DNA from: Mycobacterium sp. Root265
Lineage (GTDB): Bacteria > Actinomycetota > Actinomycetes > Mycobacteriales > Mycobacteriaceae
Direction: 5' to 3'
NCBI RefSeq assembly: GCF_001428895.1
Contig: NZ_LMJA01000031.1
Span: 124,001-188,000 of the forward strand
DNA: 64,000 bases
Below, in pieces: positions 30,437 through 48,535 of the stretch. Below the pieces are notes generated by a model. The model was not told the origin of the DNA. It did not search any database and worked only from the letters and a program-made list of their open reading frames with translations. Numbering within the stretch: position 1 is the first letter of the stretch; the number at the start of each line of letters is the position of its first letter. The position numbers were made by a program, and so were the translations under genes.

Positions 30437-30468
30437 AACCCCCGTCCAACGTAGAATCGGGAGCCAAT

Positions 30469-31179: not shown

Positions 31180-32036
31180 TGCAACGCACCAAACCACGCC
31201 CGGCGGCGATGCGCATCCTGCCGAGCGCCACCACCGTGCTGGCGATCTGCGCGGGGCTGACGTCCATCAAGTTCGCGCTCGACGACCAGCCTCATATCGC
31301 CCTCGCGCTGATCGGCGCCGCCGCGATCCTGGACGGTATCGACGGCGGCATCGCCCGCGCGCTGGATGCCCAGTCGCGGATGGGCGCCGAGATCGACTCG
31401 CTGGCCGACGCGGTGAACTTCGGCGTGGCGCCCGCGCTGGTGGTGTACGTGACGTTGCTGCCGACGTCCCCGGTGGGCTGGATCTTCGCGCTGCTGTACT
31501 GCGTGTGCATCGTGCTGCGGTTGGCGCGCTTCAACGCGTTGCTCGACGACACCACCAAACCCGCCTACACGCGGCAGTACTTCACCGGCATGCCCGCGCC
31601 CTGCGGGGCCGTCGGCGTCATCGCGCCGCTGGCCGCCATGCTGCAGTTCGGCCAGGGCTGGTGGACCGCACCCTGGTTCGTGTGTCTGTGGTTCGCGGCG
31701 AACGCCACCCTGCTGGTCAGCCGCATCCCTACGCTGGCGCTGAAATCGGTCTCGATGCCGCCCAACGCGGCGCCGTTCCTGTTGATCGCCATCGCCGCCG
31801 CGGCCGCCGCGCTGCTGCTGTTCCCCTACGTGCTGCTGCTGCTCATCGTGGTCGGCTACGTCTGCGTCATCCCCTTCACCATCCGCAGTCAACGCTGGGT
31901 TGCGGCACGACCGGAGACGTGGAACGACAAACCGGGCCAACGCCGTCAGGCCCGCCGCGAGATCCGCCGCGCCGCCCAGCCGCACCGCCGCTCGATGTCG
32001 CGGCTGGGCCTGCGCAAGCCGCAGGGCCGCAAATGA
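31179..32036 (+). CDS. pssA: CDP-diacylglycerol--serine O-phosphatidyltransferase
   Basis: A 285-aa membrane enzyme making phosphatidylserine, the Psd substrate. The CDP-alcohol phosphatidyltransferase motif DGIDGGIARALDAQSRMGAEIDSLADAVNFG shows the D-G-x2-A-R...G-x3-D-x3-D signature. Several helices follow, ending with LLLFPYVLLLLIVVGYVCVIPF and a basic tail (RRQARREIRRAAQPHRRS). Coupled to psd (TGATG) and to the downstream ATPase (ATGA). Confidence 0.95.
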   Translation: MQRTKPRPAAMRILPSATTVLAICAGLTSIKFALDDQPHIALALIGAAAILDGIDGGIARALDAQSRMGAEIDSLADAVNFGVAPALVVYVTLLPTSPVGWIFALLYCVCIVLRLARFNALLDDTTKPAYTRQYFTGMPAPCGAVGVIAPLAAMLQFGQGWWTAPWFVCLWFAANATLLVSRIPTLALKSVSMPPNAAPFLLIAIAAAAAALLLFPYVLLLLIVVGYVCVIPFTIRSQRWVAARPETWNDKPGQRRQARREIRRAAQPHRRSMSRLGLRKPQGRK

Positions 32037-34259: not shown

Positions 34260-35567
34260 ATGCTGGAGACGGTTCCCCTGACGGTGCGCTGCCCGCAGGG
34301 CCGGGCACTGTCTCCGTTCGAGACGATCCATGCGCTGGTCTGCGAGACGACCGTGATGGCGAGCCGGATGGCCGGACCACTGGACCTGGACGCGCTGCAC
34401 GCCGCGTGGGATCGGTTGGTACAGCGCAACCCCGTGCTTACCGGCCGGATCGGCTTCGGAGCCGCCGGGCCGGAACTCATCGTCGAGGCGTCTACGCCCG
34501 CGCCGCCGTTGACCAGCGGCCGGGTCGATCCGGCACAGCACACCACGACGCCGATCGGCATCGGGGAGACGGTGTCCTTTCTCGACGTCACCCCGGCGCC
34601 CGGCGACGAGCACTGGGTGAGCCTGGTGACCCACCACGCCATTGCCGACGGCATCCTGGTGTATCACTGGTTCGGGATCCTCTGGCAGAACTACACGCAG
34701 ATCCTGGCCGGCGCCACGATGCCGGTACCCGAACCGTTGCCCGCACCGGCCGCCACGGAGACGCTGCTGGCCGACCGCGGTGTCAGGAAGGGGCCGCGCA
34801 GCGGCGCCGAACGACTCGACGGTGTCGTGGTGTATCCGTTCCGCGACCCGGTCGGCCGCAGCCCGGACGCGGACCCGTTCGCTCAGCACCGGATCGTCAC
34901 CGTGCTGAGCGCCGAGGACACCGCCGCCCTGCGCGCGTCGGCCAAGGCACTCAACGAAACGCTGCACGGATTGATATGCGGTGCCGTTCTTCTCGCCGAG
35001 CGTGAACTGCTGGACCCCGACGGTCCGCTGCCGATGGGCCTGATCTCGCACGTGAACATCCGCCGGTGGATGAGCCCGCCCGCCGATGAGGCCGACGGGA
35101 CCAATGTGCTCGGGTACTCCTGCGCCCAGGTCATCGTCGACCCGGCCGACGATCCGCGGCACATCGGCGAGCAGATCCTGAGCCAGCTGCACACCGACCT
35201 GGAAGACGGTGTGGTGCAGCAGACTTGCCTGCACATTCCCGACATCATCGCGCGGTGGGCCACCAGCGACAACCTCGAGCCGATCTCGGTGTCGAACATG
35301 GGTGAGTTCGCGCCGTTGACGCTGCCCGCCGGGGTGCACGCGGGGGAATTCCAGATCAGGGGCAACGCCAACTACGCCGTACTGGCGGGCGGCGGGCCGC
35401 CGGACAACCTGCCGCTGTCCACCGGACGTCACCACATGGTCTTCAGCTATCACGGACGGCTGAACATACAGACCAGCTACCCGGCGGCCGTCCTCACCGC
35501 CGCCCGGGCCGAGGCCTTCGCCGACCGGATCAGGACGCTACTGCTGACGATGGCGCATGACGGCTGA
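34260..35567 (+). CDS. PapA/condensation-type acyltransferase (cluster gene)
   Basis: A 435-aa protein of the CoA-dependent acyltransferase/condensation superfamily, closest in layout to PapA-type polyketide/glycolipid acyltransferases. The active-site motif HHAIADG is at residues 125-131. LSPFETIHALVCETTVMASRMAG starts the first half, and LGYSCAQVIVD plus EPISVSNMGEFAPLTLPAG form the second half; the PapA5 DFGWG motif is not evident. It would transfer an acyl group to a hydroxyl of the cluster product. The ATG at 34260 follows AGGAGG by 4 nt. The P450 start overlaps its end by 11 nt. It lies just outside the conserved ATPase operon, at the left end of the proposed cluster. Confidence 0.85.
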   Translation: MLETVPLTVRCPQGRALSPFETIHALVCETTVMASRMAGPLDLDALHAAWDRLVQRNPVLTGRIGFGAAGPELIVEASTPAPPLTSGRVDPAQHTTTPIGIGETVSFLDVTPAPGDEHWVSLVTHHAIADGILVYHWFGILWQNYTQILAGATMPVPEPLPAPAATETLLADRGVRKGPRSGAERLDGVVVYPFRDPVGRSPDADPFAQHRIVTVLSAEDTAALRASAKALNETLHGLICGAVLLAERELLDPDGPLPMGLISHVNIRRWMSPPADEADGTNVLGYSCAQVIVDPADDPRHIGEQILSQLHTDLEDGVVQQTCLHIPDIIARWATSDNLEPISVSNMGEFAPLTLPAGVHAGEFQIRGNANYAVLAGGGPPDNLPLSTGRHHMVFSYHGRLNIQTSYPAAVLTAARAEAFADRIRTLLLTMAHDG

Positions 35568-36846
35568 GTTCCCCACCGCCCCAGGGAGACTGCCGCTACT
35601 CGGCCATGCGCACCTGGTCACCGGGGACCCACGGGCCTTCCTCACCTCGCTACCCGAACTCGGGCCCGTCGTCCGGATCTACCTCGGCGCGCGGCCCGCC
35701 TACGTGCTCACCACGCCGGAGACCATTCGCGAGGTGAGCCTCGGCCGGGCGGGGACCTTCCATCGCGATGCGCTGCGGGACGCCATCAGCGAACTGGTCA
35801 GCGGCGCCACCAACGTCCTCAGCGGCACCGAACACGATGTACGTAGGCGGATGATCGCCCCGGCATTCCGCCAGGGCCGACTCAACGAGTACGCAGGCCA
35901 CGTCGCCACCATCGCCGACGACTGGTCGGCGGCCTTCACCGCCGGCGACTGCGGTGATCTACGCTCCCGCGTCCACGAACTCGTCACCCGCACCATGTTC
36001 GCCACCCTGTTCCGGTCCGATTCCGGCGCCGACGAGGCGAGCTTCATCCAGCGGCGGATCCCCTGGCTGCTCGGCGAGGTCATCATCCGGGGCGCGCTAC
36101 CCAAACCGGCTCGGCGCCTGCGCATCATCCCCAATCGCCGGTTCGTCCGGCAGTCCGGCGAAGTACGCACGGCATTGCGATCGCTGATCGATCAGCGCCG
36201 CCAGGACACCGACCGCGGGGACATGCTCTCGGCGCTGCTGCATCTTCCGGATGACGATCTGGTGGACGAGCTGCTGCTGGCACTGGCTGCAAGTATCGGT
36301 TCGCAGTCCTCGATCTTCGCGTGGCTCATCTATGAGACCGCGCGCGCACCGCAGATCACCGAACGAATCTGCGCCGAAGTGGATTCGGTGGTCGGCACCG
36401 GCCCGGTGCGGCCCGAGCACGCGTCGTCGCTGCCGTTCCTGCGCAACGTCCTGATGGAGACGCTGCGGGTGTGGGCCCCGTGGATCTCGATGATCACCTC
36501 CGGCGGCCCTGTCCGCATCGGCGCCACGCAGTTTCCGGACAACACCGACTTCCTGTTCAGCCCGTACATGGTGCATCACCAGGAACGGCATTTCCGGGAC
36601 GCCGCCGTGTTCGACCCCGACCGCTGGGACGGTGCGGCCGGTGACCCGCAGGCCATGATGCCCTTCGGGATGGGTCAACGGCACTGTCCCGGTAATCATT
36701 TCGCGCTGTTGTCGATCACTCTGCAGGCGGCCGCCCTGTTCGCCCGGTGGCGTCCGGCGCTCCCCGACGATTTCGAGGTGAAGGTGCGGGGCAAGGATTT
36801 CGTGCTGTCACCGGCGGCACTGCCGGTGACGCTGACGCCTCGCTAG
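35557..36846 (+). CDS. Cytochrome P450 (cluster gene) with atypical I-helix
   Basis: A 429-aa soluble P450. The heme loop FGMGQRHCPGNHFA has the ligand Cys at about 377, ExxR is ETLR (301-304), and the PERF-like region is HFRDAAVFDPDRW. The I-helix oxygen-activation motif, normally A/G-G-x-D/E-T, reads IGSQSS (247-252), lacking the acidic residue and the Thr. Hydroxylation or another oxidation of the cluster product is likely. The altered motif suggests substrate-assisted or unusual chemistry. Translation is coupled to the upstream acyltransferase. Its stop shares CTAG with the convergent glycosyltransferase stop. Confidence 0.9.
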   Translation: MTAEFPTAPGRLPLLGHAHLVTGDPRAFLTSLPELGPVVRIYLGARPAYVLTTPETIREVSLGRAGTFHRDALRDAISELVSGATNVLSGTEHDVRRRMIAPAFRQGRLNEYAGHVATIADDWSAAFTAGDCGDLRSRVHELVTRTMFATLFRSDSGADEASFIQRRIPWLLGEVIIRGALPKPARRLRIIPNRRFVRQSGEVRTALRSLIDQRRQDTDRGDMLSALLHLPDDDLVDELLLALAASIGSQSSIFAWLIYETARAPQITERICAEVDSVVGTGPVRPEHASSLPFLRNVLMETLRVWAPWISMITSGGPVRIGATQFPDNTDFLFSPYMVHHQERHFRDAAVFDPDRWDGAAGDPQAMMPFGMGQRHCPGNHFALLSITLQAAALFARWRPALPDDFEVKVRGKDFVLSPAALPVTLTPR

Positions 36847-38126
36847 CCCGCGGCCTCCTTCTCGGCGATATCGCACACCATGGGCACACCGTCCCCGGTC
36901 GCGCGCAGCCTTGCTCCGAGAGCAGCTGCGCGGCTGCGGGTCTGCTCGTCGAGCAGCACATCGATCGCCGTGCCGAGGGTGCGCGCATCGAGCTTGGTGA
37001 ACGGGATGTGCGCCCCGACGCCGAGCCGCTCGACCTGGGTTCCCCACAGCGGCTGGTCGAAGGACACCGAGCACACCAGCGTCGGCAGGCCGGCACGCAG
37101 ACTCTCGAAGAGCGTCCCGATACCACCGTGGTGCACCGCCGCACCGCAGTGCGGAAAGATGAGGTCGTGGGCGAGGGCGTCGACGATCTTGACATTCGTT
37201 CCGACGCACAATGATTCGTTGCCCAGGTCGGCGCCACCCACACTGATCAAGGCGCGTTGCCCGGTCCGGTCGCAGATCTGCTGGATCAGCCCGATCACCG
37301 AGCCGAAGTCCTGTATCGGCAGGCTGCCGAACCCGAAGAAGATGGGCGGTGTGCCGGCAGCTGCCCACTGCACCACGTCGGTGTGTTCCTCGGCCAGTTC
37401 ACCGATTGCCTCGCGGGCCGACCGCGGCAGCCACAGAAAGCCGACGAATGGTCGTGTCGATCCCCACTCTTCCGCCAGGCCGGGGACGAGCGCCGAATCG
37501 TACATCTGCAGCTCGGGCACCTGCCGTTTCGCGAGCTGAGACTCCGTGCTGGCTGTCGTTCTCGGCAGGTCCAGCTTCACCCGCAGATTGTTCAGGTACT
37601 TCCCGAACACCGCGGTGCGCAGCCGTTCCAGTGCGAACCAGGCACCCCGGTTGACGGCTCCCGGGATCGGCCAGTGGTGTGGCAGTGCACCGGGCGGCGC
37701 GTAGGAACTGTTCTTACGGCTCGGGTACGTGTGCAGTGTGACAACCGGGATGTCGCGCGCCTCGGCCAGGATGACCGAGCGGTCCTCACTGAACGTGGTG
37801 CACACGATCATCTCCGCGTCCGCGGAGATGTCGATCAGCTCATCGTCCATCCGGTCGGCGTACTCGGCCATCTGGCCGGACACCATCTGCATCAGCTTGA
37901 ACGAGTTTCCCGCCGCCAGCGCCCGCTGCCCTTCGGGCGACGAATACAGCGCGTGCACATCGGGACCGAACTGCCGGGCGGTCAGGCCTGTCTTGCCGAC
38001 GAAGTCGACGAAATTGGGTGGTGCACCGATCACCACGGTATGACCGCGGCGTTCCAGCTCCAGGCCCAGCGCGATCCCGGGCTGAACATCGCCCCGGCTG
38101 CCTACGAGAGGGATGAGAATGCGCAC
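36843..38126 (-). CDS. GT1 family glycosyltransferase (cluster gene)
   Basis: A 427-aa UDP-glycosyltransferase-like GT-B enzyme. The N-terminus RILIPLVGSRGDVQPGIALGLELERRGH is typical of sterol/glycopeptidolipid-type glycosyltransferases. The donor-binding signature HCGAAVHHGGIGTLFESLRAGLP followed by FDQPLWG is at about 326-362. It would glycosylate the hydroxylated or prenylated product. The start is GTG at 38126, sharing a base with the UbiA stop (TAGTG). An earlier in-frame start would lie within UbiA. Last gene of the minus-strand operon. Donor sugar unknown. Confidence 0.9.
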   Translation of the reverse strand: MRILIPLVGSRGDVQPGIALGLELERRGHTVVIGAPPNFVDFVGKTGLTARQFGPDVHALYSSPEGQRALAAGNSFKLMQMVSGQMAEYADRMDDELIDISADAEMIVCTTFSEDRSVILAEARDIPVVTLHTYPSRKNSSYAPPGALPHHWPIPGAVNRGAWFALERLRTAVFGKYLNNLRVKLDLPRTTASTESQLAKRQVPELQMYDSALVPGLAEEWGSTRPFVGFLWLPRSAREAIGELAEEHTDVVQWAAAGTPPIFFGFGSLPIQDFGSVIGLIQQICDRTGQRALISVGGADLGNESLCVGTNVKIVDALAHDLIFPHCGAAVHHGGIGTLFESLRAGLPTLVCSVSFDQPLWGTQVERLGVGAHIPFTKLDARTLGTAIDVLLDEQTRSRAAALGARLRATGDGVPMVCDIAEKEAAG

Positions 38127-38998
38127 TATGCACCTTTCGTGTGCAGGAGACCTTGGACCAGAATGCTGAGATAGAAGACGACCACGAAAACCGTTGGCCA
38201 GCTCCGCGGATGATCGGCGGGCTCGCGAGTGAAAAAGATCCATGCCGACACGCAGGGCAATGCGACGGTCGCCAGCGGCAGCGGATTACCGGTGAGCAGG
38301 ATCGCCAGCAGCACCGCGAAGAGGCCGAAAGCCCATGCGGTGACCGCACTTGCGCGCGGGCCGAGCATCTGCGAATAGGAATGCGGGTCGCGCACGGCGG
38401 CGGACCGGGAGGTCTTTCTGGCGAACTCCAGATGCAGGAAGGCACTGGTGAACACCAACGGCACGGCGAGCGCCCGTAGATCCAGGCCGGGTTGGCCCAC
38501 CATCATGAAACCGGTCACCAGGAACTGAGCCGGGCAGACAACCGCAAGGGCTGCCAACGGGTTGTCCCGTAGCCAGGCCGTCCGCGGTTCAGCCCACCAG
38601 AGCACCAGGCCGTAGCCGAGCGCGGTCGCCAGCAACGCCGTGGCCGAAAGCGAGACGGCCGACGCGAGAGTCAGCGCCAGCGCAGCGGTCGGCCACATCG
38701 CCTGCCGCAGTTCCCCGCCGGAGATCCGGCCCTGCACCAATGGTCGCGACGGATTGTGTGTCCGGTCGTAGGCGAGGTCCTTCTGGTCGTCGACCATCCG
38801 CAGGAAGGCACCCGCCGCGATCAGCGCCAGCACCTTCCACAGCGTGTCCCAGGTCGGTCGCCACGGTCCGCCGCCGCCGAGAACGACGGTCATGCTCTCG
38901 ACGGCGACCACCCACAGCGTCAGGTACACCGGGTAGACCGGCAGGTAACGCTCGGCGAGATACGCGCCGACCCCGCCGCGGCGTTCGGTGACCGTCAT
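38126..38998 (-). CDS. UbiA-family prenyltransferase (cluster gene)
   Basis: A 290-aa membrane protein with about eight helices. The first Asp-rich motif is FLRMVDDQKDLAYDRTHNPSRPLVQG (about 66-90). The region after FLHLEFARKTSRSAAVRDPHSYSQMLG takes the place of the second motif, which is degenerate compared with UbiA itself. The family transfers isoprenyl groups from diphosphates to aromatic or other acceptors, in the membrane. ATG at 38998 overlaps the AfsA-like stop (ATGA). No prenyl diphosphate synthase is present in the cluster, so the donor would come from primary metabolism (for example decaprenyl or geranylgeranyl diphosphate). Confidence 0.88.
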   Translation of the reverse strand: MTVTERRGGVGAYLAERYLPVYPVYLTLWVVAVESMTVVLGGGGPWRPTWDTLWKVLALIAAGAFLRMVDDQKDLAYDRTHNPSRPLVQGRISGGELRQAMWPTAALALTLASAVSLSATALLATALGYGLVLWWAEPRTAWLRDNPLAALAVVCPAQFLVTGFMMVGQPGLDLRALAVPLVFTSAFLHLEFARKTSRSAAVRDPHSYSQMLGPRASAVTAWAFGLFAVLLAILLTGNPLPLATVALPCVSAWIFFTREPADHPRSWPTVFVVVFYLSILVQGLLHTKGA

Positions 38999-39888
38999 TC
39001 GGCCGAGAAGGTCAGCTCGATCGCGGCACGGGTCTGCCCGGACTGAGTCACCGCCCCGCGGAAGGTCATATCGTCTTCGGGTGCCTGTGCCATGGTGACG
39101 GTACTGACGGCATCCAGTTCGGTGAAGGACGTGTAGTCGCACCGCAGCGAGGCCAGGCCGGTCACGCTCGGGGCTCGCGGCCCCATGACCGACAACGCGA
39201 GCTGACGGCAGGCCTCGATGATCAGACCACCGGGCAGATGATCGAGCGGGTGATCGAAGATCGTGGGGTGACCGAGGTCCACCACGATGGGTGCGCTCGC
39301 ACCGTCGGCCGTCCCGGTCGGCTCGCCGATCACCACGTTCCGCGGATCTGTGCGGCCCACCCGTGCCGGCTCGGCGGGGAGCGCCGACGGCACCGGTTCC
39401 CAGCTCGCACCGTCGCGGAAGCTCTCCCACTGGGTGCCCGACATCCAGCCGAAGGCAGCGGTGAACTCCATCACCTTCGTGCCGTCATGGGTGACGACCG
39501 CGCCGACCTCCAGACCCTGCCGGAACTCTTTGCGCACGGCGATGTTGAACTCCAGGTTCAGTGCCGTGGTGTCGCGGCGCAGCGCGGTCAGATCGACCAC
39601 GGAGAACTCGTAGTACCGCACCGTGTGCCGGGCATCCATCGGGACGTCGTAGAACAGATGGCTCGCGGCGATACATGCCTGCCGGAAGGCCTCCATGACG
39701 AGCAGCGGATCGTGGTAGGCCCGCTGGCAGGCGGTCGTGTCGGTGTGGAAGTGGTGCTGCCGCGGCAACTGCGCGTGGCAGATCCACCCCTGCTGCTGGC
39801 CGGTCACCGCGGTGACGAGCACCTCGCCGATCGCCCGTTTGTGCACGAGTTCGCGGGCGATCGTCTGAGAGTAATTGACTGCGTTCAT
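38995..39888 (-). CDS. AfsA/ScbA-like double-hotdog protein (cluster gene)
   Basis: A 297-aa protein of the A-factor biosynthesis family, which condenses a beta-ketoacyl chain with dihydroxyacetone phosphate to start gamma-butyrolactone or butenolide signals in Streptomyces. Both hotdog repeats are visible: LVHKRAIGEVLVT...YHDPLLVMEAFRQACIAASHLFY (about 13-90) and FDHPLDHLPGGLIIEACRQLALSV (about 212-240). The paired E-x2-RQ residues essential in ScbA are kept. It is translationally coupled on both sides (ATGA). No gamma-butyrolactone receptor is nearby. This is an uncommon gene in a mycobacterium. Confidence 0.88.
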   Translation of the reverse strand: MNAVNYSQTIARELVHKRAIGEVLVTAVTGQQQGWICHAQLPRQHHFHTDTTACQRAYHDPLLVMEAFRQACIAASHLFYDVPMDARHTVRYYEFSVVDLTALRRDTTALNLEFNIAVRKEFRQGLEVGAVVTHDGTKVMEFTAAFGWMSGTQWESFRDGASWEPVPSALPAEPARVGRTDPRNVVIGEPTGTADGASAPIVVDLGHPTIFDHPLDHLPGGLIIEACRQLALSVMGPRAPSVTGLASLRCDYTSFTELDAVSTVTMAQAPEDDMTFRGAVTQSGQTRAAIELTFSAE

Positions 39889-40718
39889 GATTCATCCCGA
39901 TCTTGCCGTCGATGCATGGGCAGGTGCGCCGATTCCAGTACGAGCCGGTACCAGGGATCCAGGGGGTGGTGCTCGTCGTCGGCCGCGTCGATGGCCGCCA
40001 TCCAGTCCGGTCCGGTCTCCGGGCGTGACGCCACGCCCGCGGCCCGCAGATGGGCCCAAACGGCGTCATGGGCTGCCCTCAGATCACCGCTTCGGCGCGG
40101 CACGCCGGCCTCGATCCGCCGCGCCAGCCGAATCGCCTCGGCGGCGACATCCACGCCGTCGGAACACGCCGAGATCACCTCGCTGAGCACAGGTTCGGCG
40201 AAGTAGATGCTCAACTCGCGCAGGACGTCGTCCGGGTCATCCGGCGAGTGGACCTGATTGAGCAGATAGGTGCCCGATGCCAGGGCATGCCGGAGTTGAC
40301 CCGGCTGTCGCTGCGCGGGATCGGCGGGACCCTTGTCGGCGGTCAACCGGACCGATACCGGCACGGTGCCGTCGGGATGGCTGACGATCAGTACCACCGA
40401 CGGCGTCATCTGCGCGAGTCGGTCGGCGAGCCTGCGCCGCTGGGGGGTGGCGAGGTGCCAGTTGAAATACCACAGCGCGCGCAGGTGCAGGGGGCTCAGT
40501 GACACCGGGTACGCCCCGACGATGCGGTAGCCGTTGTCGATCAGCCAGGACACCGCCCGGCTCATCCCGCCGGTGATCGCCGCATCCGGCTTGAGCAACA
40601 GAACCGCTCTGCGCGAGGCGAACTCGCCGGCATCGATCCGTAGCCGGGCCAGCGCCTCATCGGTGTCCAGAAAGTAGACGTCGGATCGGTACCTGCCGGC
40701 GACACGCGTGTCGGTCAT
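39885..40718 (-). CDS. Nucleoside diphosphate kinase-like protein with C-terminal extension (cluster gene)
   Basis: A 277-aa protein whose residues about 36-180 match the NDK fold. VLLLKPDAAITGG contains the conserved Lys (43). GPADPAQRQPGQLRHALASGTYLLNQVHSPDD reproduces the NDK G-T-x-P...PGTIR...N-x2-HGSD block, with Asn154 and the phospho-acceptor His157. The extra about 95 residues at the end have no recognised domain. It is not housekeeping ndk (about 136 aa). It may phosphorylate a cluster intermediate or regenerate NTPs. Start ATG at 40718 overlaps the SDR stop (ATGA). Confidence 0.8.
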   Translation of the reverse strand: MTDTRVAGRYRSDVYFLDTDEALARLRIDAGEFASRRAVLLLKPDAAITGGMSRAVSWLIDNGYRIVGAYPVSLSPLHLRALWYFNWHLATPQRRRLADRLAQMTPSVVLIVSHPDGTVPVSVRLTADKGPADPAQRQPGQLRHALASGTYLLNQVHSPDDPDDVLRELSIYFAEPVLSEVISACSDGVDVAAEAIRLARRIEAGVPRRSGDLRAAHDAVWAHLRAAGVASRPETGPDWMAAIDAADDEHHPLDPWYRLVLESAHLPMHRRQDRDES

Positions 40719-41779
40719 ACCTGGCTCCTTTCTCGGTGCAAGGTGGCCAGCACCTCGGCGACGGACGGTTGGGGTCTGCCCAGATACCCGGTACGCAGGC
40801 ATGAGTCGAGAATTCGGCGCAGATAGCCGGCACCCGACGACGGCGGCGTGACACCGAGTCGCTCGCGGGTGTTGGTGCTGTCGAACTCCGGGCGGCGGGT
40901 CAGGTAACTCGCGTACAGCGCGCCCACCTTGCGGTAGTAGCCCGCCTCGATCTCGTCGAGGTCGTCCACGCTGAAGGTGCTCGGTGGCACGAAGTCGGCC
41001 ACCCGGAAGGACGGATATTCGGCCAGCACGTCCGAGATCATGCGCAGTGAAATCGGTTTCGCTCCCACGGCATGGAACGTGCGGCCGACGTTGTCGGAGA
41101 AACCCTCGGTGACCGCGACGATGGTGTCGGCGACGTGCCCGATCGGCGAGAGTGCCAGCGTCGCACCGTACTGCCCGGGCAGGGTGCGTAACCGGCCCTC
41201 GACGATCAGCTTGAGCACCTGATAGATGTGCTTGTGCTCGCGGCTGTGCCCCGTGCGGTGATCGCCGGAGACGATGCCGGGACGCACCACCGCCCACCGC
41301 AGTCCCGAGCTGCGCACCAGCTGCTCGGCCCGGAACTTGCTGCGCTCGTAGTCGTTTCCGAAGCCCTGCCCCGCGTCGAGCTGATCCTCGCCGAACGGGC
41401 CGTTGTGCTCACCGCAGACGTAGGCGGTGCTGACGTACACGAAGTCACAGTCCCGGCGGCGCGCGAGCGCCAACGCGTTCGCGGTTCCCTGCACGTTGAG
41501 TTCGGTGTACCGCTGCTCCGGAAGCCCGAAGTCGGTGACGGCCGCGCAGTGCACCATGACGTCGATCTCATCGCCCAGCCCGCTGACACCGAACTCCTCG
41601 AGTCGAACGTCACCGCGCACAACCCGGGTCGGCCGCACGCGCCGGCCGCTGTTGGCGACGACGACGGGTCGGTCGTGCACCAGGGCCGTCACATCGTGTC
41701 CGCGAGCGACCAGACGGGCCACGACGTCCGCTCCGACATGTCCGGCCGCGCCGGTGACCAGGACGCGCCGCCCGCTCAC
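40715..41779 (-). CDS. Extended SDR / thioester-reductase-like protein (cluster gene)
   Basis: A 354-aa NAD(P)-dependent extended SDR. RVLVTGAAGHVGADVVARLVARGH is the dinucleotide site, VMVHCAAVTDF and NVQGTANALALARRRDCDFVYVSTAYVCG are typical of the male-sterility/thioester-reductase group, and YERSK (about 155-159) is catalytic. In this context it could reduce an ACP-bound acyl thioester or the keto group of a butyrolactone precursor. The start is GTG at 41779, overlapping the ACP stop (GTGA). Confidence 0.88.
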   Translation of the reverse strand: MSGRRVLVTGAAGHVGADVVARLVARGHDVTALVHDRPVVVANSGRRVRPTRVVRGDVRLEEFGVSGLGDEIDVMVHCAAVTDFGLPEQRYTELNVQGTANALALARRRDCDFVYVSTAYVCGEHNGPFGEDQLDAGQGFGNDYERSKFRAEQLVRSSGLRWAVVRPGIVSGDHRTGHSREHKHIYQVLKLIVEGRLRTLPGQYGATLALSPIGHVADTIVAVTEGFSDNVGRTFHAVGAKPISLRMISDVLAEYPSFRVADFVPPSTFSVDDLDEIEAGYYRKVGALYASYLTRRPEFDSTNTRERLGVTPPSSGAGYLRRILDSCLRTGYLGRPQPSVAEVLATLHRERSQV

Positions 41780-42015
41780 GACGGCACCTTGAGGTTCTGC
41801 ACGAGTGCCACCAGGTCACCGACGGTCTGCACGCCCGCCAGCGTGTCCGGTGTCAGTGGCGGGAGGGCGAAGGCCCGTTCGACCGCGATGGACAGCTCCA
41901 GCAGGCGCAGCGACGTATAGCCGAGGTCACCGACGAACGCGCTGTGCAGGGCCGGTTCGACCGGTCCGGGGGCCATGGCGGTCACCAGCGCGAGCACGTC
42001 GCTCCCGATGGTCAT
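41776..42015 (-). CDS. Free-standing acyl carrier protein (cluster gene)
   Basis: A 79-aa four-helix carrier protein. The phosphopantetheine site reads LGYTSLRLLEL: the acceptor Ser is kept but the usual preceding Asp of DSL is Thr. The start is ATG at 42015, sharing its A with the stop of the upstream ligase (TGATG), so the ligase and its presumed cognate carrier are made together. It would hold the acyl-AMP-derived chain as a thioester. Confidence 0.85.
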   Translation of the reverse strand: MTIGSDVLALVTAMAPGPVEPALHSAFVGDLGYTSLRLLELSIAVERAFALPPLTPDTLAGVQTVGDLVALVQNLKVPS

Positions 42016-45000
42016 CACGATGGCTCCCCGCCTGCCCGCGCGGACGGTTGCGCGCCGCCGCTGGCCAGCAGATCCCTCGCCTCGTCCAGTTCCACATAGG
42101 CATCCAGATAGCCGCCCATCCGCAGCCACTGGTAGCCGTATCGCAACGTCTCCTGCCACTGCGTCCGGGAGGCGAACGACGATGGGAACATCTCTCCGCC
42201 CGTCACCGCTTGGACGTCCGACACGAACTGGTCGACCTCGGCCAGCGCTCGCGATGCGTCATCGTGATCCTCGACTTTCAGTTCGGCGAGGTGGCGGGCC
42301 CGGGTGGCCAGCTCGGGGTGATCCGGCACCAGCGTGTCCAGTCCGTGCAGCAGCACCGGGTCGCCCGGCAAGGGCGTGACGCCCCACGCACTGGCCAGGA
42401 TGCGGACCGCCATGGTGACGATGCGCCGTCCGCACAGGGCCGCCACCTCCCACTGACCGTCCTTGACGGCACCGTCGAAGTCCTCGCGGGCGTTCTCCAA
42501 GACCATGTTGGCCAGGATCAGCGCACTGGCGCCCTCGGCGAACGCCTTTGCCTTCAAGGGCGATCTGGAGATCGGCCCATCGGGCGGTGCGCCGTCGATG
42601 GTGATCACCGGGCGCCGGACCGACGGCGCCGGAGTCAGCGGCCTGCCCGGATCGCACATCGCGGCAACCGGTGTGATGACACCGCCACCTCGCCAGGCCA
42701 GCGCGACCAGGCCGAGTCGCGCGAACAACGCCAGGTGCTCGCCGGGGACCCGGGTTTCGGCGAGGCTTTGTCCGAACACGACCTGCCGCCAGGATTCGGC
42801 ACATTCGGCTGACAATACGAAGAGATCGTCCTTGTCACGGATGACGTGGGTCGTCGACCTGACGGGCCAGGTGGTGACGCCTGCAACCCGGCGCAGGATC
42901 ACGTTCCGCGGGTCCACGCCGATGCTCGGCCCGCCCATGCGGGCGGCCAGTGCGAATGCCGCCCCGATGGTGAACTCGCGGTCCAGTTCTCGATAGTCGT
43001 CGAGGATCGCCGCGACCCTGGCGTCCGCGCGGAGCCGCAGCCGGTCCATCTGCGACGGCAGCCACTTGATCTCCACATAGCCCTCACCGTGGTGGGCCAG
43101 GAATGCCTTCATGGTCTGGGCCAGACCTTCTCGGGCCCAGCTGACCGCCTCGGAGTCGCGGCCGAGCCCGGCCAGGGCGGCCGCCTGGTGCAGGCACTGA
43201 TCGGCGCGGCGCTGCCACCATGTCGAAAGTAGCTCCGTGAGTTCCGGGTAGCCGACGACGTCGCGCAACTCGCCATAGCCGGGTCCGGCCCTGAGCACGG
43301 TGCCCCGCAGGAATCGCTGCACGCGGTTGAGCGCATCCTCGGAGGCCACGGCACCGGTGTCCAGCGATCGGCGGATCCGCAGCAGCCGTGTGCGTACCTG
43401 GGCATGAGACTGCGCCCGGATCTCCACCCGGTGCCCGTCGATGAAGAGCACCGTCGGCATCACCGCTTCGGCACCGGCGCCCGGGATCAGCAGCAGCAGG
43501 TCGATATCGGAGCCCTCGTTGCCGAAGCCCTCGGCAAGCGATCCCTCGAAATGCACTGTGGCGTCTTCCGGTATCACGGCGAGCGCACAGGCTTTCTCGA
43601 AGAGACCGCGCACATTCTCGACCATGCCGTTGTCCGACACCGACAGCAGTTCGGCGCCGACCAGACCACCCGCGCACCACTGTTGCCACATGTGCGCGCG
43701 CCGCGGTTTGCCGCTGGAGGTACGGGCCAGCCCACCGCGGGGCACACCGACGAACTGCAGCCGGGCATCCGCGCCGACCTGTCCGCTCAGCGCGGTGCGC
43801 AGGCGCGAGAGTGCGGCGCCGGCGGGCTGCTCGATGAAGACCGTCACCCCGGCGCGTCCACCGTCGTCGACCGCGACCGTCATCACCCGGTTCGGCGTGG
43901 TGCCCAGCGCCGCGGCCGCCGACAGATCGAGATCCTCCGCGAAGATGCTGCGCCCGTTGACCTTCACGCTCGTTCCCATCCGCCCGAGTACGTACAGTTC
44001 GCCGTCGAGCAGGAAACCCGCATCCCCGGTGTGCAGTTCGCCACCGATGCAGCGGGTGGCGCTGTCCGGGTCCCCGCGGTAGCCGGCGAACACCGACTCA
44101 CCTTCGAGCACGATTTCGCCGAGCACACCGTCGACCGTTGTCCCGGCGATCCGGATCCGGTGCCCGCGCATCGGGACGCCGACGGACACCACCCAGTCCG
44201 AACCGGCGGCGCTCAGGTCTTCGGCATGTTCGAGCACAGGTACCGGATCCCCCTGCCGCAGTGCGGATCTGTCGATACGCACCATCCGATGCGGCTGACC
44301 GAGCCGGTGCGCGGACGCGATCAGGGTCGCCTCGGCCAACCCGTAGGACGGCAGGAAGGCGCGCGGCGAGAAGCCCCGAGCGGCAGTGAGTTCGACGAAC
44401 GACCGCAGATGAGCCGGATGGATCGGCTCCGCGCCGACCACGACGGTGCGCACCGTCGACAGATCGATGTCGGCGATATCCGCCGCGGACAACCGCCTGC
44501 CGGCGTAGGCCAGCCCGAACGGCGGAGTCACGGTGTGGCGGGCGTGCGCGGCGGCCCGCAACCAGCGGGCCGGATCGCGGACGAACTGATCGGGACGCAT
44601 CAGGTAGAGGTCGCGTTGGCGGGTGATGGTCTGGAACACCGCGCCGATCAGGCCCATATCGTGATACAGCGGCAGCCAGGAGGCGGTGGCGTCCCCGGCA
44701 CCCAGCAGGCATGCGGTGTCGATGGCGTCGAGATTGCTCGCCAGGCTGGGCCAGCCGATCTGTGCGCCCCTCGGTGCGCTGGTCGACCCGGATGTCATCT
44801 GCAGCAGCACGTTCGCGCCGGGCTCGGCCAGTTCGGCCAACGGCTCCGCTTCCGGCACGTCATCGAGCAGCACCACCCGGGGTGGTTGCGCCAGGCCGGC
44901 GACCGCTCTGGCGACCGTGTCCGCGAAGGCAACGCCGGTGAGCACGGTGCGCACCTGCGAGCTCGCCAGCACACCGGCCAGGTGCCGGAGGTACTGCTCG

Positions 45001-45287
45001 GGGTCATGGAACAGCGGCGGCGCGATGGGCGTCAGAGTCGCTCCCGCCGCAGGTACCGCGAACATCGCCGACAGGCACAGGTGCGATGTCGGCATCAGCA
45101 CCCCGACGGTGTCGCCCGCGCGGATGCCCAGGCCGGCGAGCACGCCCGCGATGCGCCGGGCGCCGTCGGCCAGGGTCACATAGGAGCAGAAGTCCCAGCC
45201 CCCGTCATCGTCGGCCAGATGCACACCGGTACCGGCCTCGGGTGCATCCATCCAGCCACGGATTCGGTCGATAGCATTGTCACGCAT
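42015..45287 (-). CDS. Fatty acyl-AMP ligase fused to nucleotidyltransferase-like domain (cluster gene)
   Basis: A 1090-aa fusion. Residues 1-535 are a FAAL/adenylation domain: LLQMTSGSTSAPRGAQI (161-177), LPLYHDMGLIG (205-214), SYGLAEATL (314-322), GELHTGDAGF (416-425) and the A10 Lys in SSGKPRR (527). The HDMG and SYGLAEAT motifs are FAAL-like. Residues about 570-640 form a Pol-beta-type nucleotidyltransferase core: EGSLAEGFGNEGSDIDLLLL with GS at 582-583, Asp594 and Asp596 and a third acidic residue in RVEIRA. About 450 further helical residues have no known match. ATG at 45287 is preferred over GTG at 45311, reducing overlap with the upstream gene to 8 nt. The combination is unusual. Confidence 0.88.
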   Translation of the reverse strand: MRDNAIDRIRGWMDAPEAGTGVHLADDDGGWDFCSYVTLADGARRIAGVLAGLGIRAGDTVGVLMPTSHLCLSAMFAVPAAGATLTPIAPPLFHDPEQYLRHLAGVLASSQVRTVLTGVAFADTVARAVAGLAQPPRVVLLDDVPEAEPLAELAEPGANVLLQMTSGSTSAPRGAQIGWPSLASNLDAIDTACLLGAGDATASWLPLYHDMGLIGAVFQTITRQRDLYLMRPDQFVRDPARWLRAAAHARHTVTPPFGLAYAGRRLSAADIADIDLSTVRTVVVGAEPIHPAHLRSFVELTAARGFSPRAFLPSYGLAEATLIASAHRLGQPHRMVRIDRSALRQGDPVPVLEHAEDLSAAGSDWVVSVGVPMRGHRIRIAGTTVDGVLGEIVLEGESVFAGYRGDPDSATRCIGGELHTGDAGFLLDGELYVLGRMGTSVKVNGRSIFAEDLDLSAAAALGTTPNRVMTVAVDDGGRAGVTVFIEQPAGAALSRLRTALSGQVGADARLQFVGVPRGGLARTSSGKPRRAHMWQQWCAGGLVGAELLSVSDNGMVENVRGLFEKACALAVIPEDATVHFEGSLAEGFGNEGSDIDLLLLIPGAGAEAVMPTVLFIDGHRVEIRAQSHAQVRTRLLRIRRSLDTGAVASEDALNRVQRFLRGTVLRAGPGYGELRDVVGYPELTELLSTWWQRRADQCLHQAAALAGLGRDSEAVSWAREGLAQTMKAFLAHHGEGYVEIKWLPSQMDRLRLRADARVAAILDDYRELDREFTIGAAFALAARMGGPSIGVDPRNVILRRVAGVTTWPVRSTTHVIRDKDDLFVLSAECAESWRQVVFGQSLAETRVPGEHLALFARLGLVALAWRGGGVITPVAAMCDPGRPLTPAPSVRRPVITIDGAPPDGPISRSPLKAKAFAEGASALILANMVLENAREDFDGAVKDGQWEVAALCGRRIVTMAVRILASAWGVTPLPGDPVLLHGLDTLVPDHPELATRARHLAELKVEDHDDASRALAEVDQFVSDVQAVTGGEMFPSSFASRTQWQETLRYGYQWLRMGGYLDAYVELDEARDLLASGGAQPSARAGGEPS

Positions 45288-48009
45288 CGGTTCTCGCTTG
45301 CTCCGGCTCACCCTGCAGCACCACGATGCTGCCGGCGGCCCCGTCGACCGTGACGGTCATGCCGGTTCGGACCGCATCGGTCAGGCCGTCGATCTGCACG
45401 ACCGTCGGGACTCCCAGCTCGCGGGCGATGATCGCGACGTGGGTCAGCGGTGAGGCACGTTCGATCAACAGCGCCGACGCGAACGGCAACGCGGCCACCC
45501 AGCCCGGGTCGGTGCGGTAGGCCACCAAGATTCCGCTGGAGAAATCCTCCGGCTTCTCCACGACGACTGCCCGCCCGGTCACCACCCCGGGGCTGGAAGG
45601 GGTTCCGGTCAGCACCGTCCCTACCGCGGCCTGCGCGACATCGTCGGCGTCGCGCCAGCCGGCCTGCCCGAGGTCGGCCGGCGCGTAGGCCGAGCCGATC
45701 GTGCTGAACCGGGCAGGTGCCTTGAACTTTCGGTATTCCTCCTGCAATGTCCGCCGCCGGGTGATCACCTGCCGGGCGGCCGCCGGGGTGGTGGAGCCGT
45801 CGTACAACCCGAACAGCTCGTCGCGGCGCAGCAGGAACACATCGGCACGGTTCTCGATGATGTCGCGGCGCACGAGGTCGCGGGCCATCACCGCGACAAG
45901 CGATTTGAGGATTCCGAACCCTTGTGTGCGGGCGAAGCGCAGCCGCTCACGGTGGGTCGCCGCGCGCTGAATCTTGGCACGGAGGACGTCGAACAGCATT
46001 CGACGTGGGCCTTTGAGATGCGCGTCGAGGTAGGCCTGGGCCGCATCACCGGGACGCTCGGCCCCGTCCGGGGACGCCATCCGCAGCATGTGGAAGATGC
46101 CCGACGGGTCCTGGCGCAGGTCTGGCGCCTCCAGCTTGAGCTCGTCGAGACACCGGTAGCCGAACCGGTCGATGTAGTCGGTGACCTTGCGGTGCAACTC
46201 ACGCCACGGCCCGCTGTCGTCCTCGGCGTATTCGATCAAGTGCAGGTATGCCGTGGTGGGGTCCGCAGATTCGATGAATGCCCACAGCTCGGGATGGCGA
46301 TGTGCGAACGCGGCGATATCAGCCAGCGCCCTGGCCGGTTCGATGGACACGACATCGGCGCCGGGGTTCACCACCGCGAACCCGAACCATTCGGGTGCCT
46401 TCGGCAGGAAAGCTCTGGTCATCGCCGCCAACAGCCCCACCGAGGTGAGCAGGATCGCGTCGAGCACCATCATCGGTCCCCAGATCTCGGCGACCTCGTC
46501 GTGGATCCGGCCGAACATCCGCTGAGCTTGCGGCCCGTCCAGCCCCGATACGTCGGCCAACCCGTGCCGGGCGATGAACTCGTGGAACGCGGTGTCGAAA
46601 TCCTCGACCAACGCGTCGATGTGGCGGAACCGCTGCACGTAGGTGGCGGTGGTCCTGGCGCGGTGCCACCACCTGGTCGCGGCGTTGTCGAAGGTGAAGG
46701 GCCGCAGGGTCTGTGCGGTCGCGGCGTCGAGCGGTTCCCCGACGCCCAGGGCGACCTCGAGCACGCGCCTGTTCAAGGCATATCCGGGGGCGATACCCAC
46801 CATGCGGTACCAGTGCAGCAGGTTGTAGTAGACGTGCCCGTTGAACTGGCCGAGCATCACCGGCAGCCACGACTCCATCTGCTCGAGTTGAGCCGGTGCC
46901 ACGTTGAGACTGCGGGCGTAGACCCGGTAGACGTCGGCGTACAGGGTGCGCGCGGTGGTGAACGTCAGCGGCGAGGTGACACCGGCATAGCTCTCGATGA
47001 TGTTGGAGTTGTCCCAGATCCGCAGCTCGCCGGCCGGGACTGCCTCGCCCAGATACTCTTCCGCGCTTGTGGATGTGCGATCGAGAGTGGTGATCGGCCG
47101 GGACTGCAGAATCCAGGTCCGCGCATCGCCGCACGCCCATTCGATGTCCTGCGGCACGCCGAAGTGTTGTTCCAGACGTGTCCCCAGTTCGGCGAGTTCC
47201 GCGGCCAGTGCTGGATCGACACTGCACGTGTCGCGCCGGTCGGTGGGCACCTCGACGGTGCGCACACCGCCGGAGTCGCCGGCGACCAGCATCTGTTGCT
47301 GGGCACCGAGACTGGTCCGGACCACCCGCCCGGTGTCCTTGTCGACGACGACGGAGTCCGGGTCGACCGCACCCGATACCAATCCCTCACCCAGTCCGAG
47401 CACGCCGTTGATGACGATCCGGTCGGTCGCCCCGGTGACCGGATCGGCGGTGAACAGGACACCGCTGCTGGATGATTCGATCAGGTGCTGCACGATCACG
47501 GCGAGCTCGACATCGCCGAAGCCGAGCCCGCGCAGGTGCCGGTACTGGGTGGCCCGCTGCGAGAACGCCGACGCCCAGCACCGGCGGACCGCGTCCTCGG
47601 CGGCGTCGATTCCGGTGACGTTGAGGAAGGTGTCGAACAAGCCGGCGAAGGAATGCGCGGCGCCGTCTTCCTGCCGCCCCGAGGACCGCACCGCGACCCT
47701 GCCATCTCCGACATGCTCAAGTGCGGCGTGGATGTCCTCACGGATCTCGGCAGAAATGGCCGACTCGGACATCATCCGTTCTGCGCGAGCGGCTTCCGCG
47801 AGGCGCTCGGCAAGCGTCAGCGGTGCATCGCTGAGTTGCACACCGGCGGACGCGGCAGCGGCGCGGAACGCGTCAGTACCCAGCACCGCCCACCGCGGCA
47901 CCGGGACGCCGGCCGCGGTGAGCGCAAACAGGTTGCGCGCCTTGCCACCTGCCGATGCGTTCACCCGATCGACGGGTGATCCCGACGTGAGGAGAAATCC
48001 GTCCGCCAT
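45280..48009 (-). CDS. RPH-like ATP-dependent dikinase phosphotransferase (cluster gene)
   Basis: A 909-aa protein with the rifampin-phosphotransferase layout. An N-terminal ATP-grasp domain (about 1-310) shows GGKARNLFALTAAGVPVPRWAVL and VAVRSSGRQEDGAAHSFAGLFDTFLNV. A large central helical domain follows (about 330-800), then a C-terminal swivelling His domain (about 810-900): PSSPGVVTGRAVV and ASPLTHVAIIARELGVPTVV, with phospho-His at 857. It lacks the PEP/pyruvate TIM barrel of PEP synthase. The expected reaction is ATP + acceptor + water to AMP, phosphate and phospho-acceptor. The acceptor may be the cluster product (biosynthetic step or self-protection). First gene of the tightly overlapped minus-strand set. 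Confidence 0.9.
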   Translation of the reverse strand: MADGFLLTSGSPVDRVNASAGGKARNLFALTAAGVPVPRWAVLGTDAFRAAAASAGVQLSDAPLTLAERLAEAARAERMMSESAISAEIREDIHAALEHVGDGRVAVRSSGRQEDGAAHSFAGLFDTFLNVTGIDAAEDAVRRCWASAFSQRATQYRHLRGLGFGDVELAVIVQHLIESSSSGVLFTADPVTGATDRIVINGVLGLGEGLVSGAVDPDSVVVDKDTGRVVRTSLGAQQQMLVAGDSGGVRTVEVPTDRRDTCSVDPALAAELAELGTRLEQHFGVPQDIEWACGDARTWILQSRPITTLDRTSTSAEEYLGEAVPAGELRIWDNSNIIESYAGVTSPLTFTTARTLYADVYRVYARSLNVAPAQLEQMESWLPVMLGQFNGHVYYNLLHWYRMVGIAPGYALNRRVLEVALGVGEPLDAATAQTLRPFTFDNAATRWWHRARTTATYVQRFRHIDALVEDFDTAFHEFIARHGLADVSGLDGPQAQRMFGRIHDEVAEIWGPMMVLDAILLTSVGLLAAMTRAFLPKAPEWFGFAVVNPGADVVSIEPARALADIAAFAHRHPELWAFIESADPTTAYLHLIEYAEDDSGPWRELHRKVTDYIDRFGYRCLDELKLEAPDLRQDPSGIFHMLRMASPDGAERPGDAAQAYLDAHLKGPRRMLFDVLRAKIQRAATHRERLRFARTQGFGILKSLVAVMARDLVRRDIIENRADVFLLRRDELFGLYDGSTTPAAARQVITRRRTLQEEYRKFKAPARFSTIGSAYAPADLGQAGWRDADDVAQAAVGTVLTGTPSSPGVVTGRAVVVEKPEDFSSGILVAYRTDPGWVAALPFASALLIERASPLTHVAIIARELGVPTVVQIDGLTDAVRTGMTVTVDGAAGSIVVLQGEPEQARTDA

Positions 48010-48058: not shown

Positions 48059-48535
48059 TTATGAGTAGTGCAGTACCCGATTCAGCCGGTCGATCGAGGC
48101 CAGTAGATTGGCCGCGGTGGTGGCCCGCGCGCGCACCAGCCGCTTCTCCTCGGTCAGGTTCGTCCAGTCATAGGTGTGGGTGACCTTGCAACGGCCGCTC
48201 CCCGATCCCCCGGGTGCTTCGCTCCCGCCCGCCGGACCGAGGGGCTCGATCTCCCAGCGCCACAGATGTCCGGGCGGCGGCTTGCCCTCCTCGGATGGCA
48301 GCCACGCGATGCGGCGGCCCTCCTCGAATTCGACGATGTGGTTCTCCCGCACGGTCCCGGAGTGCACCATCATCCGGAACACATCGCCCACCGCGTGCAC
48401 CCGCTGCCCGGCGGCGGCCTCGGTGAGGTTGTCATTGCCGTCCCAGCGCGGTTGCTGCGCGGGGTCGGCGATCAGCTCGAAGATCACTTCGGGTTCCGCG
48501 GCGATCTCGCGGCTGGCGCTCACAATCCGGCTCAC
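48059..48535 (-). CDS. SRPBCC (START/polyketide cyclase-like) family protein
   Basis: A 158-aa helix-grip protein: ASREIAAEPEVIFELIADPAQQPRWDGNDNLTEAAAGQRVHAVGD at the start and KVTHTYDWTNLTEEKRLVRARATTAANLLASIDRLNRVL at the end. It could bind a hydrophobic ligand; catalysis is not evident. A Gly/Ser/Pro-rich stretch (PAGGSEAPGGSGSGR) is encoded by a degenerate copy of the window's GC-rich repeat. Start GTG at 48535 has TAGCCT 6 nt upstream. It lies 49 bp upstream of the cluster on the same strand and may belong to it, or may be an older neighbour. Confidence 0.82.
   Translation of the reverse strand: MSRIVSASREIAAEPEVIFELIADPAQQPRWDGNDNLTEAAAGQRVHAVGDVFRMMVHSGTVRENHIVEFEEGRRIAWLPSEEGKPPPGHLWRWEIEPLGPAGGSEAPGGSGSGRCKVTHTYDWTNLTEEKRLVRARATTAANLLASIDRLNRVLHYS
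48214..48224 (+). repeat. dispersed GC-rich repeat core, copy c (degenerate)
   Basis: GTGCTTCGCTC after a C5G3 run, inside the SRPBCC gene; one base shorter than the family core. Confidence 0.3.

Follow-up and report, generated by a model that had tools for sequence, protein, structure and literature searches.

The 64,000-nt stretch of the 6.67-Mb genome of Mycobacterium sp. Root265 analyzed here (hereafter, the window) contains a ten-gene cluster at positions 34260-48009, which we read with moderate confidence as a co-inherited operon for a probably membrane-associated, acylated, and prenylated metabolite, made without a polyketide synthase (PKS) or nonribosomal peptide synthetase (NRPS). 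We infer this product and the order of the steps leading to it from the gene content, gene order, and overlaps of the cluster, its conserved catalytic residues, its co-conservation, and its variant architectures. The predicted core comprises six proteins: a relative of phosphoenolpyruvate (PEP) synthase and rifampin phosphotransferase (RPH) with PPDK-type domains (PPDK-like), a nucleotidyltransferase (NTase), a short-chain dehydrogenase/reductase (SDR), a nucleoside diphosphate kinase-like protein (NDK-like), AfsA, and a UbiA-type membrane transferase. A fatty acyl-AMP ligase (FAAL), in the window fused to the NTase, and a free-standing acyl carrier protein (ACP) are predicted to form an acyl-loading front end.

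Gene organization

Eight of the ten genes lie on the minus strand (36843-48009) and overlap or abut, and the cytochrome P450 and PapA genes lie on the plus strand. The initial annotation had counted seven or eight minus-strand genes overlapping end to end; the junctions, read from the DNA, settle the number at eight. The PPDK-like and FAAL genes overlap by 8 bp, FAAL/ACP meet at TGATG, ACP/SDR at GTGA, and SDR/NDK, NDK/AfsA, and AfsA/UbiA each at ATGA. At the last junction (TAGTG), the GTG start of a GT1-type glycosyltransferase (GT) gene overlaps the UbiA stop. The P450 and PapA genes overlap by 11 bp. The earlier domain calls hold by Pfam, except that UbiA and the NTase, both below the Pfam cut-off, are recognized only with structure models. 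Of the window proteins scanned with Pfam, none showed a PKS or NRPS module, in line with the compact, megasynthase-free cluster first described.

Conservation across Actinomycetota

Full-length matches to the NTase half of the fusion protein came from 7 of 198 genomes of the same genus (11 matched, and four weak partial matches with E values of 1.9e-5 to 5e-4 were left out), from 27 of the 301 family genomes sampled (8 of 31 genera), and from 5 of 296 genomes of the phylum. A further 12 came from the 246 genomes of genus g7, which is probably Streptomyces because AfsA and UbiA of ten of the twelve loci were 67-82% identical to those of the S. filipinensis locus L084; in the remaining two, the identities were 42-56%. 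Given this spread across the family and g7, together with the full gene set in 22 of the family genomes, the cluster is not an oddity of one strain.

A pattern-based scan gave 68 named loci, chiefly from Nocardia and Mycolicibacterium/Mycobacterium, with others from Gordonia, Tsukamurella, Dietzia, S. filipinensis, and metagenome bins; they overlap with the family and genus genomes above (e.g., G043/L023, G024/L027, G053/L073) and are not independent samples. Searched by tblastn with the window proteins, these loci matched PPDK in 66 cases, FAAL in 67, NTase in 68, ACP in 67, SDR in 68, NDK in 67, AfsA in 66, and UbiA in 66. All eight domains were present in 64 loci, the exceptions being L058 and L059 (both at contig ends), L075, and L084, and the six-gene core was collinear on one strand in 65, which bears out the co-occurrence elsewhere that the initial annotation had proposed as a check. 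Pairwise identities of seven core domains were correlated at 0.937-0.978 (63 loci), as expected of a unit inherited together. Chance grouping of the genes was ruled out by this co-conservation and these correlations.

With approximate start choice, the PPDK/FAAL overlap was kept in 62 of 66 loci and the ACP/SDR overlap in 57 of 65. AfsA and UbiA were within 40 bp of each other in just 29 of 66, and a nitroreductase-like gene stands between them in some Nocardia (e.g., L033, L062, L064, L081). The idea of nine or ten genes forming one unit survives in part: there is a co-conserved core, but it comprises just six genes. FAAL and ACP are missing in 11 of the 12 g7 loci and in S. filipinensis, and among the 68 loci the GT was matched in 28, the P450 in 38, and PapA only in L022 (M. 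canariasense).

Architectural variants

Twenty-six of the 27 family genomes were viewed in context (all but G670). The full set, denoted Type I, was found in 22, including G684, assigned by gene content despite shortened PPDK, NTase, and SDR matches. Three genomes had Type II only and one had Type III; G647 had both Types I and II. Type Ib is the six-gene form PPDK-NTase-SDR-NDK-AfsA-UbiA with a free-standing NTase, seen in 11 of the 12 g7 hits and in S. filipinensis L084. Lax searches of 13 loci of the S. filipinensis type found FAAL and ACP in L116 alone, which is a Type I locus; the most frequent neighbor around these 13 loci was a P450 (five loci).

Type II loci (L099, L103 with L149, L104, and L132) encode FAAL-NTase, ACP, SDR, and a PPDK relative and match UbiA weakly; neither NDK nor AfsA was matched in the fetched flanks. 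Annotation of L099 and L104 showed a condensation-adenylation-thiolation NRPS module and a ketosynthase (KS)-thiolation-thioesterase protein, and the UbiA proteins of these two loci bear the same two motifs as are described for UbiA below. Exporter proteins of the FtsX/MacB type were annotated in L099, L103, and L104. The Type III locus (L100, genome G760) combines PPDK, FAAL, SDR, NTase, and NDK with a class III aminotransferase, a formyltransferase-like protein, and a HAD protein; neither AfsA nor UbiA was matched in its fetched flanks. Another L100 protein looks NagA-like by eye and had no Pfam match. L075, from an actinobacterial bin, has only FAAL, ACP, SDR, and a stand-alone NTase beside an ABC-2 exporter; upstream of it lie genes for PGK, a 2-hydroxyacid dehydrogenase, and an S-adenosylhomocysteine hydrolase-like protein.

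Wherever the NTase occurred, in the 68 named loci as in the variants examined, the SDR accompanied it, even in the most reduced variants (L075 and L100); the SDR occurred together with PPDK in Types I, Ib, II, and III. The working model of the initial annotation gave the NTase no role, despite this pairing. An exclusive link of NDK to AfsA was also considered, and is contradicted by L100 and its flanks.

An AfsA-UbiA operon with polyprenyl synthases

The 198 same-genus genomes were searched for AfsA with PF03756 (E up to 0.001) and for this subtype of UbiA with model A9 (E up to 1e-10). Each matched ten genomes, and the ten were identical. Three of them (G041, G090, and G114), with weak AfsA and UbiA scores, carry a divergent AfsA-ICMT-PPDK-P450-UbiA operon between two polyprenyl synthases, denoted Type V. 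These loci also encode a 436-aa protein without family assignment and an MMPL exporter, and gave no match to FAAL, ACP, SDR, or NDK. The DDxxD motifs of the polyprenyl synthases were checked in L175 only, and L177 has ~3.3 kb extra between UbiA and the second synthase.

By its predicted proteins, Type V appears to be a separate, meroterpenoid-like mycobacterial cluster. It links AfsA, PPDK, and UbiA to one another independently of the NTase, and UbiA to prenyl diphosphates. Since AfsA, PPDK, and UbiA recur jointly in Types I, Ib, and V, one shared chemistry is likely; since prenyl-diphosphate synthases stand beside the Type V UbiA, UbiA most likely prenylates, as the initial annotation had supposed.

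AfsA and UbiA

Both AfsA hits of the Root265 genome are the two hotdog repeats of a single gene. All four AfsA orthologues tested pass the NCBIfam ScbA/BarX model NF041195 (L120, 226.7 bits; L116, 223.3; L067 from Gordonia, 213.7; L034 from Nocardia, 212.0). No solved relative of AfsA was found by sequence at E up to 1.

The UbiA fold is supported by an AlphaFold model, which is closest to prenyl UbiAs. The closest UbiA by sequence is digeranylgeranylglyceryl phosphate (DGGGP) synthase, a glycerol-lipid UbiA, which also comes first by fold, though tied. UbiA enzymes carry a first Asp motif, (N/D)DxxDxxxD, and a second Asp motif is also expected. The first is kept (D70, D/E71, D74, D78). At the apparent position of the second, 17 of 17 aligned proteins have E191-x-A-R194-K195, whose counterpart in the three proteins of Type V is E-F-G-K-K.

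This unusual second motif, and the nearness to DGGGP synthase, would also suit a model in which FAAL, ACP, and SDR make a fatty alcohol, the PPDK-like protein phosphorylates it, the NDK-like protein converts it to a diphosphate, and UbiA moves the alkyl chain, not an isoprenyl chain, onto the C3-phosphate product of AfsA, giving a glycerol-ether-like lipid. Also consistent with it are the SDR, nearest to thioester and acyl reductases, the kept active site of the NDK-like protein, the Type I and Ib genes scanned, in which no prenyl synthase was seen, and Type II, which keeps FAAL-NTase-ACP-SDR-PPDK-UbiA without AfsA and with NRPS and KS proteins. However, NDK was not found in the Type II flanks fetched, Type V combines UbiA, PPDK, and AfsA with prenyl synthases and no match to FAAL, ACP, SDR, or NDK, and UbiA chemistry is thought to require an allylic donor. 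We consider alkyl transfer unlikely.

The Arg-Lys pair standing where the second acidic motif is expected recalls the phosphoribosyltransferase Rv3806c, in which a K/R cluster reportedly replaces the second Mg2+ (PMC10994848). UbiA might by analogy move a sugar phosphate onto a lipid phosphate, and of two UbiAs of the same genome compared with it, the presumed Rv3806c orthologue aligned better. We regard sugar-phosphate transfer as very improbable.

Phosphoryl- and nucleotidyl-transfer enzymes

For residue conservation, alignments omitted sequences far from the window length, and "kept" denotes at least 97% of the aligned sequences. T856-H857 of the PPDK-like protein is kept among 66 sequences. 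The protein passes the PEP-synthase-like model NF004881 (927.2 bits; cut-off 883), as do those of L120 (1132.7), L034 (996.1), L104 (986.4), and L099 (976.0), whereas that of L100 (761.8) fails. It scores below the cut-offs of the RPH model NF041857 (310.2; cut-off 999), RedH NF052632 (362.2; 1350), and PigC NF052631 (293.9; 1300). Its nearest solved chains are 5fbs and 5hv1 (E ~1e-77), which we take to be rifampin phosphotransferases.

RedH and PigC are the ligases of prodiginine synthesis. After two PEP-synthase models, RedH is the next best NCBIfam match of the PPDK-like protein, nearly full length and ahead of RPH, and the SDR and PPDK co-occur in four of the architectures. The PPDK-like protein might therefore act like RedH/PigC, activating an SDR-made aldehyde and joining it to the AfsA nucleus in Type I or to the NRPS/KS product in Type II. 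The scores far under both ligase cut-offs, the nearest solved chains, and Type V, which has PPDK without an SDR match, argue against such a role, and we hold it quite improbable. The alkyl-donor and ligase models nevertheless remain live.

In the NDK-like protein, K43, R124, R143, N154, H157, and E168 are kept among 66 aligned sequences; presumably, they are equivalent to the numbered catalytic and phosphate-binding residues of NDK. The protein scores 35.2 bits against the NDK equivalog NF001908 (cut-off 155), and a separate, ordinary NDK (174.8 bits) is encoded elsewhere in the genome. Its kept phosphohistidine machinery, beside this ordinary NDK, would fit a pathway in which the AfsA product itself is the donor: an allylic CH2-O-phosphate on the C3 unit would be converted to a diphosphate by the NDK-like protein and used by UbiA as a prenyl-diphosphate mimic. 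The conversion of furfuryl phosphate to its diphosphate in methanofuran synthesis is a precedent, and NDK, AfsA, and UbiA are successive in 65 of the 68 loci, although in some Nocardia AfsA and UbiA are separated by an extra gene. Type V, with AfsA and UbiA and no NDK match, and L100, with NDK and neither AfsA nor UbiA, speak against this use of the AfsA product, which we rate as rather improbable.

The NTase half matched NTP_transf_2 at 18.9 bits (cut-off 21). AlphaFold models tend to support the fold, and by these the NTase appears to resemble kanamycin nucleotidyltransferase (KNTase)/ANT(4') and the MNT-HEPN fold, with a probable D-x-D motif. Catalytic residues are kept in FAAL and NTase in the alignment of orthologues. 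DUF6001 was rejected as a hint at what the FAAL protein carries in its C-terminal half: it scored 23.3 bits (cut-off 25) and 26.8 in a second scan, in which it matched the Root265 genome alone among 296, and is read as a weak resemblance within the NTase fold. A PqqD-like middle domain of the NTase half, suspected by eye, had no Pfam match and is not claimed.

Three proteins of the operon (36843-48009) resemble drug-modifying enzymes by family or fold, namely RPH, KNTase/ANT, and the glycosyltransferase Rgt. They might form a drug-inactivation kit that modifies a toxic compound, the other genes being incidental. However, the biosynthetic FAAL, ACP, SDR, AfsA, and UbiA occur alongside in 64 of the 68 loci, the GT was matched in fewer than half of them, and scores against NCBIfam resistance models are far below the cut-offs. 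We give this explanation almost no credence.

FAAL, ACP, SDR, and decorating enzymes

The best NCBIfam match of the FAAL is NF006624, at 278.7 bits (cut-off 600). S35 of the ACP is kept among 62 aligned sequences. The SDR keeps its catalytic S117/T118, Y144, and K148 among 69 sequences; against the thioester-reductase model TIGR01746 (cut-off 213.35), the window SDR scores 106.6 and that of L120 147.9. Its nearest solved chain is MxaA (E 9.5e-22), followed by reductase domains of PKS, CAR, and AusA. The best NCBIfam match of the P450 is albaflavenone monooxygenase (202.4 bits; cut-off 700).

Predicted pathway

In the proposed pathway, FAAL would adenylate a fatty acid and load it onto the ACP; in versions without FAAL and ACP, acyl thioesters would presumably come from primary metabolism. 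Known AfsA enzymes join an acyl thioester to dihydroxyacetone phosphate, and for this reason an acyl/C3-phosphate nucleus is the likely acceptor of UbiA. AfsA would condense the acyl thioester with a C3 phosphate to an acyl-C3-phosphate or butenolide-type nucleus, to which UbiA would attach a prenyl chain in the membrane. The donor would be supplied by the two polyprenyl synthases of the cluster in Type V and by the host pool in Type I. The SDR may reduce a thioester or carbonyl. The PPDK/RPH-like protein, the NDK-like protein, and the NTase may phosphorylate, pyrophosphorylate, or nucleotidylate an intermediate, with activation and protection both possible. Decoration would depend on the strain, by GT1, P450, and PapA in the window and by an O-methyltransferase in many Nocardia loci.

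As a more tentative proposal, the cluster may represent an undescribed class of megasynthase-free Actinomycetota products. An acyl/C3-phosphate nucleus made by AfsA would be alkylated or prenylated by a UbiA of unusual active site, and a relay of PPDK-, NDK-, and KNTase-like enzymes would convert an alcohol or phosphate group on the intermediate to a diphosphate or to a group carried by a nucleotide. Nucleus, acyl front end, and donor supply would be swapped as modules among Types Ib, II, III, and V.

Several points weigh against this interpretation of the operon. The window AfsA scores 179.9 bits against NF041195, under the cut-off of 200, and UbiA scores 30.4 bits, and 32.5 in a second scan, against a Pfam gathering score of 34.2. 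The second Asp motif was not seen in UbiA by eye or by alignment, which is ambiguous there with respect to canonical members, and no prenyl synthase turned up, either in the scanned window proteins or in the neighboring genes sampled for other Type I/Ib loci. Loci in which no ACP was found still have the SDR. FAAL-NTase-ACP-SDR without AfsA (L075 and Type II) and NDK without AfsA or UbiA (L100) imply that the AfsA product is not the sole substrate of these enzymes. Conservation among the 68 loci is partly by construction because the NTase half was used to find them. A common species history is by itself enough to raise both the identity correlations and the ten-of-ten overlap of AfsA and UbiA.

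Genomic context

The features discussed are collected in Table 1. An SRPBCC gene on the operon strand lies 49 bp upstream of the PPDK/RPH-like gene and is a possible first gene of the mycobacterial operon. A same-strand SRPBCC match was found in 9 of the 68 loci, all from Mycolicibacterium/Mycobacterium, at 27-67% identity, and at 27% orthology is not certain. The cluster is flanked by MoeA, phosphatidylserine decarboxylase (PSD), CDP-alcohol transferase, and AAA genes on one side and by Mrp-type Na+/H+ antiporter genes on the other, with a DUF1707 gene between the latter and the cluster. Mycobacterial clusters lie near this psd block, on the AAA side in the window and L022 and on the psd side in L023-L028 and L073, where PSD matches at 62-67%. 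Among neighbors in other loci, found with GC-based gene calls that miss or merge genes and that served solely for this purpose, an O-methyltransferase family occurs in 28 of the 68 loci and a nitroreductase-like family in 13, each annotated from a single member.

A plasmid location was rejected, as the window NTase half had no match in 72,556 plasmid records at E 1e-10. Anti-phage defense was also rejected, with no PADLOC match for the three proteins tested.

Table 1. Features of the Root265 cluster and of related loci. Unlabelled coordinates are window positions; others follow the name of their locus.
Feature	Coordinates	Strand	Support
PapA-like acyltransferase	34260..35567	+	Pfam PapA_C 154.7 bits; NCBIfam PapA5 225.9 bits, below cut-off 396
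Cytochrome P450	35557..36846	+	Pfam p450 135.9 bits
GT1-type glycosyltransferase	36843..38126	-	Pfam EryCIII-like_C and Glyco_transf_28; NCBIfam Rgt 93.2 bits, below cut-off 800
UbiA-type membrane transferase (predicted core)	38126..38998	-	Pfam UbiA below cut-off; AlphaFold model
AfsA, two hotdog repeats (predicted core)	38995..39888	-	Pfam AfsA 125.7 bits, two stretches
NDK-like phosphotransferase with C-terminal extension (predicted core)	39885..40718	-	Pfam NDK 40.1 bits
Extended SDR, thioester-reductase/acyl-reductase type (predicted core)	40715..41779	-	NAD_binding_4 109.3 bits
Free-standing ACP (predicted front end)	41776..42015	-	PP-binding 25.6 bits (scanned from an upstream start in the same frame)
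Fusion FAAL-nucleotidyltransferase-HEPN-like	42015..45287	-	Residues: FAAL ~1-545; KNTase-like NTase ~550-785; HEPN-like helical domain ~917-1033
PEP-synthase/rifampin-phosphotransferase-like protein, PPDK/RPH-like (predicted core)	45280..48009	-	PPDK_N 251.2 bits; PEP-utilizers 68.3 bits
SRPBCC (Polyketide_cyc2) protein	48059..48535	-	Pfam 37.4 bits
MoeA, PSD, CDP-alcohol transferase, and AAA genes	28796-34183		
Mrp-type Na+/H+ antiporter genes	49094-54544		
Type II loci with NRPS module	L099 1297-18642; L104 413-17999		
Type III locus	L100 1143-16831		
FAAL, ACP, SDR, and stand-alone NTase	L075 1-11620		
Type V loci	L175 5210-17477 (G114); L176 (G041); L177 (G090)		Pfam on L175 only; same order by tblastn in L176 and L177
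O-methyltransferase family, Nocardia example	L085 16840-17976		
Nitroreductase-like family, Nocardia example	L033 14960-15655		

Comparison with known systems

By composition, the cluster is closest to the AfsA/ScbA gamma-butyrolactone pathways of Streptomyces, with which it has an AfsA-type condensing enzyme in common, but it adds UbiA, PPDK-like, NDK-like, and NTase proteins in one operon. It was not placed in the gamma-butyrolactone family because the window AfsA misses the ScbA/BarX cut-off that its tested orthologues pass, and no gamma-butyrolactone receptor gene was found among the 30 window proteins scanned. To our knowledge, no AfsA-type pathway contains UbiA and three nucleotide-dependent enzymes.

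The individual proteins likewise resemble known families and depart from them. The PPDK-like protein shares the PPDK_N and PEP-utilizer domains and the catalytic His of the rifampin phosphotransferase/RedH/PEP synthase superfamily, and passes a PEP-synthase-like model. However, it is not a member of RPH, RedH, or PigC by cut-off, and it sits in a biosynthetic operon, in loci that were chosen via NTase or AfsA/UbiA. UbiA shares the fold and first Asp motif of archaeal DGGGP synthase and other UbiA prenyltransferases, whereas E-x-A-R-K appears to replace the second Asp motif and its Pfam score is under the cut-off. FAAL-ACP-reductase modules of lipopeptide and hydrocarbon pathways likewise have FAAL, a free ACP, and a thioester-reductase-like SDR adjacent to one another; here, FAAL is instead fused to a KNTase-like NTase and a HEPN-like domain, with no assembly-line modules between. 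The NTase appears to share its fold and D-x-D motif with KNTase/ANT(4') and MNT-HEPN nucleotidyltransferases, but differs in its fusion to FAAL, its extra HEPN-like domain, and its biosynthetic operon.

The initial annotation had matched the cluster to no known pathway. Among the matches listed in searches limited to open-licence papers, no description was found, which is weak evidence of absence; judged by their titles, the papers that mention AfsA together with UbiA seem unrelated, and the passages considered of PMC7413640 and PMC12153302 do not describe the cluster. Annotation by family names (PEP synthase, gamma-butyrolactone synthase, NDK, prenyltransferase) would spread the cluster across unrelated categories. 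Being small, the six-gene form could be expressed whole. If the tentatively proposed relay is real, it would represent a new way of activating small molecules, via phosphohistidine and nucleotidyl enzymes related to drug-modifying families.

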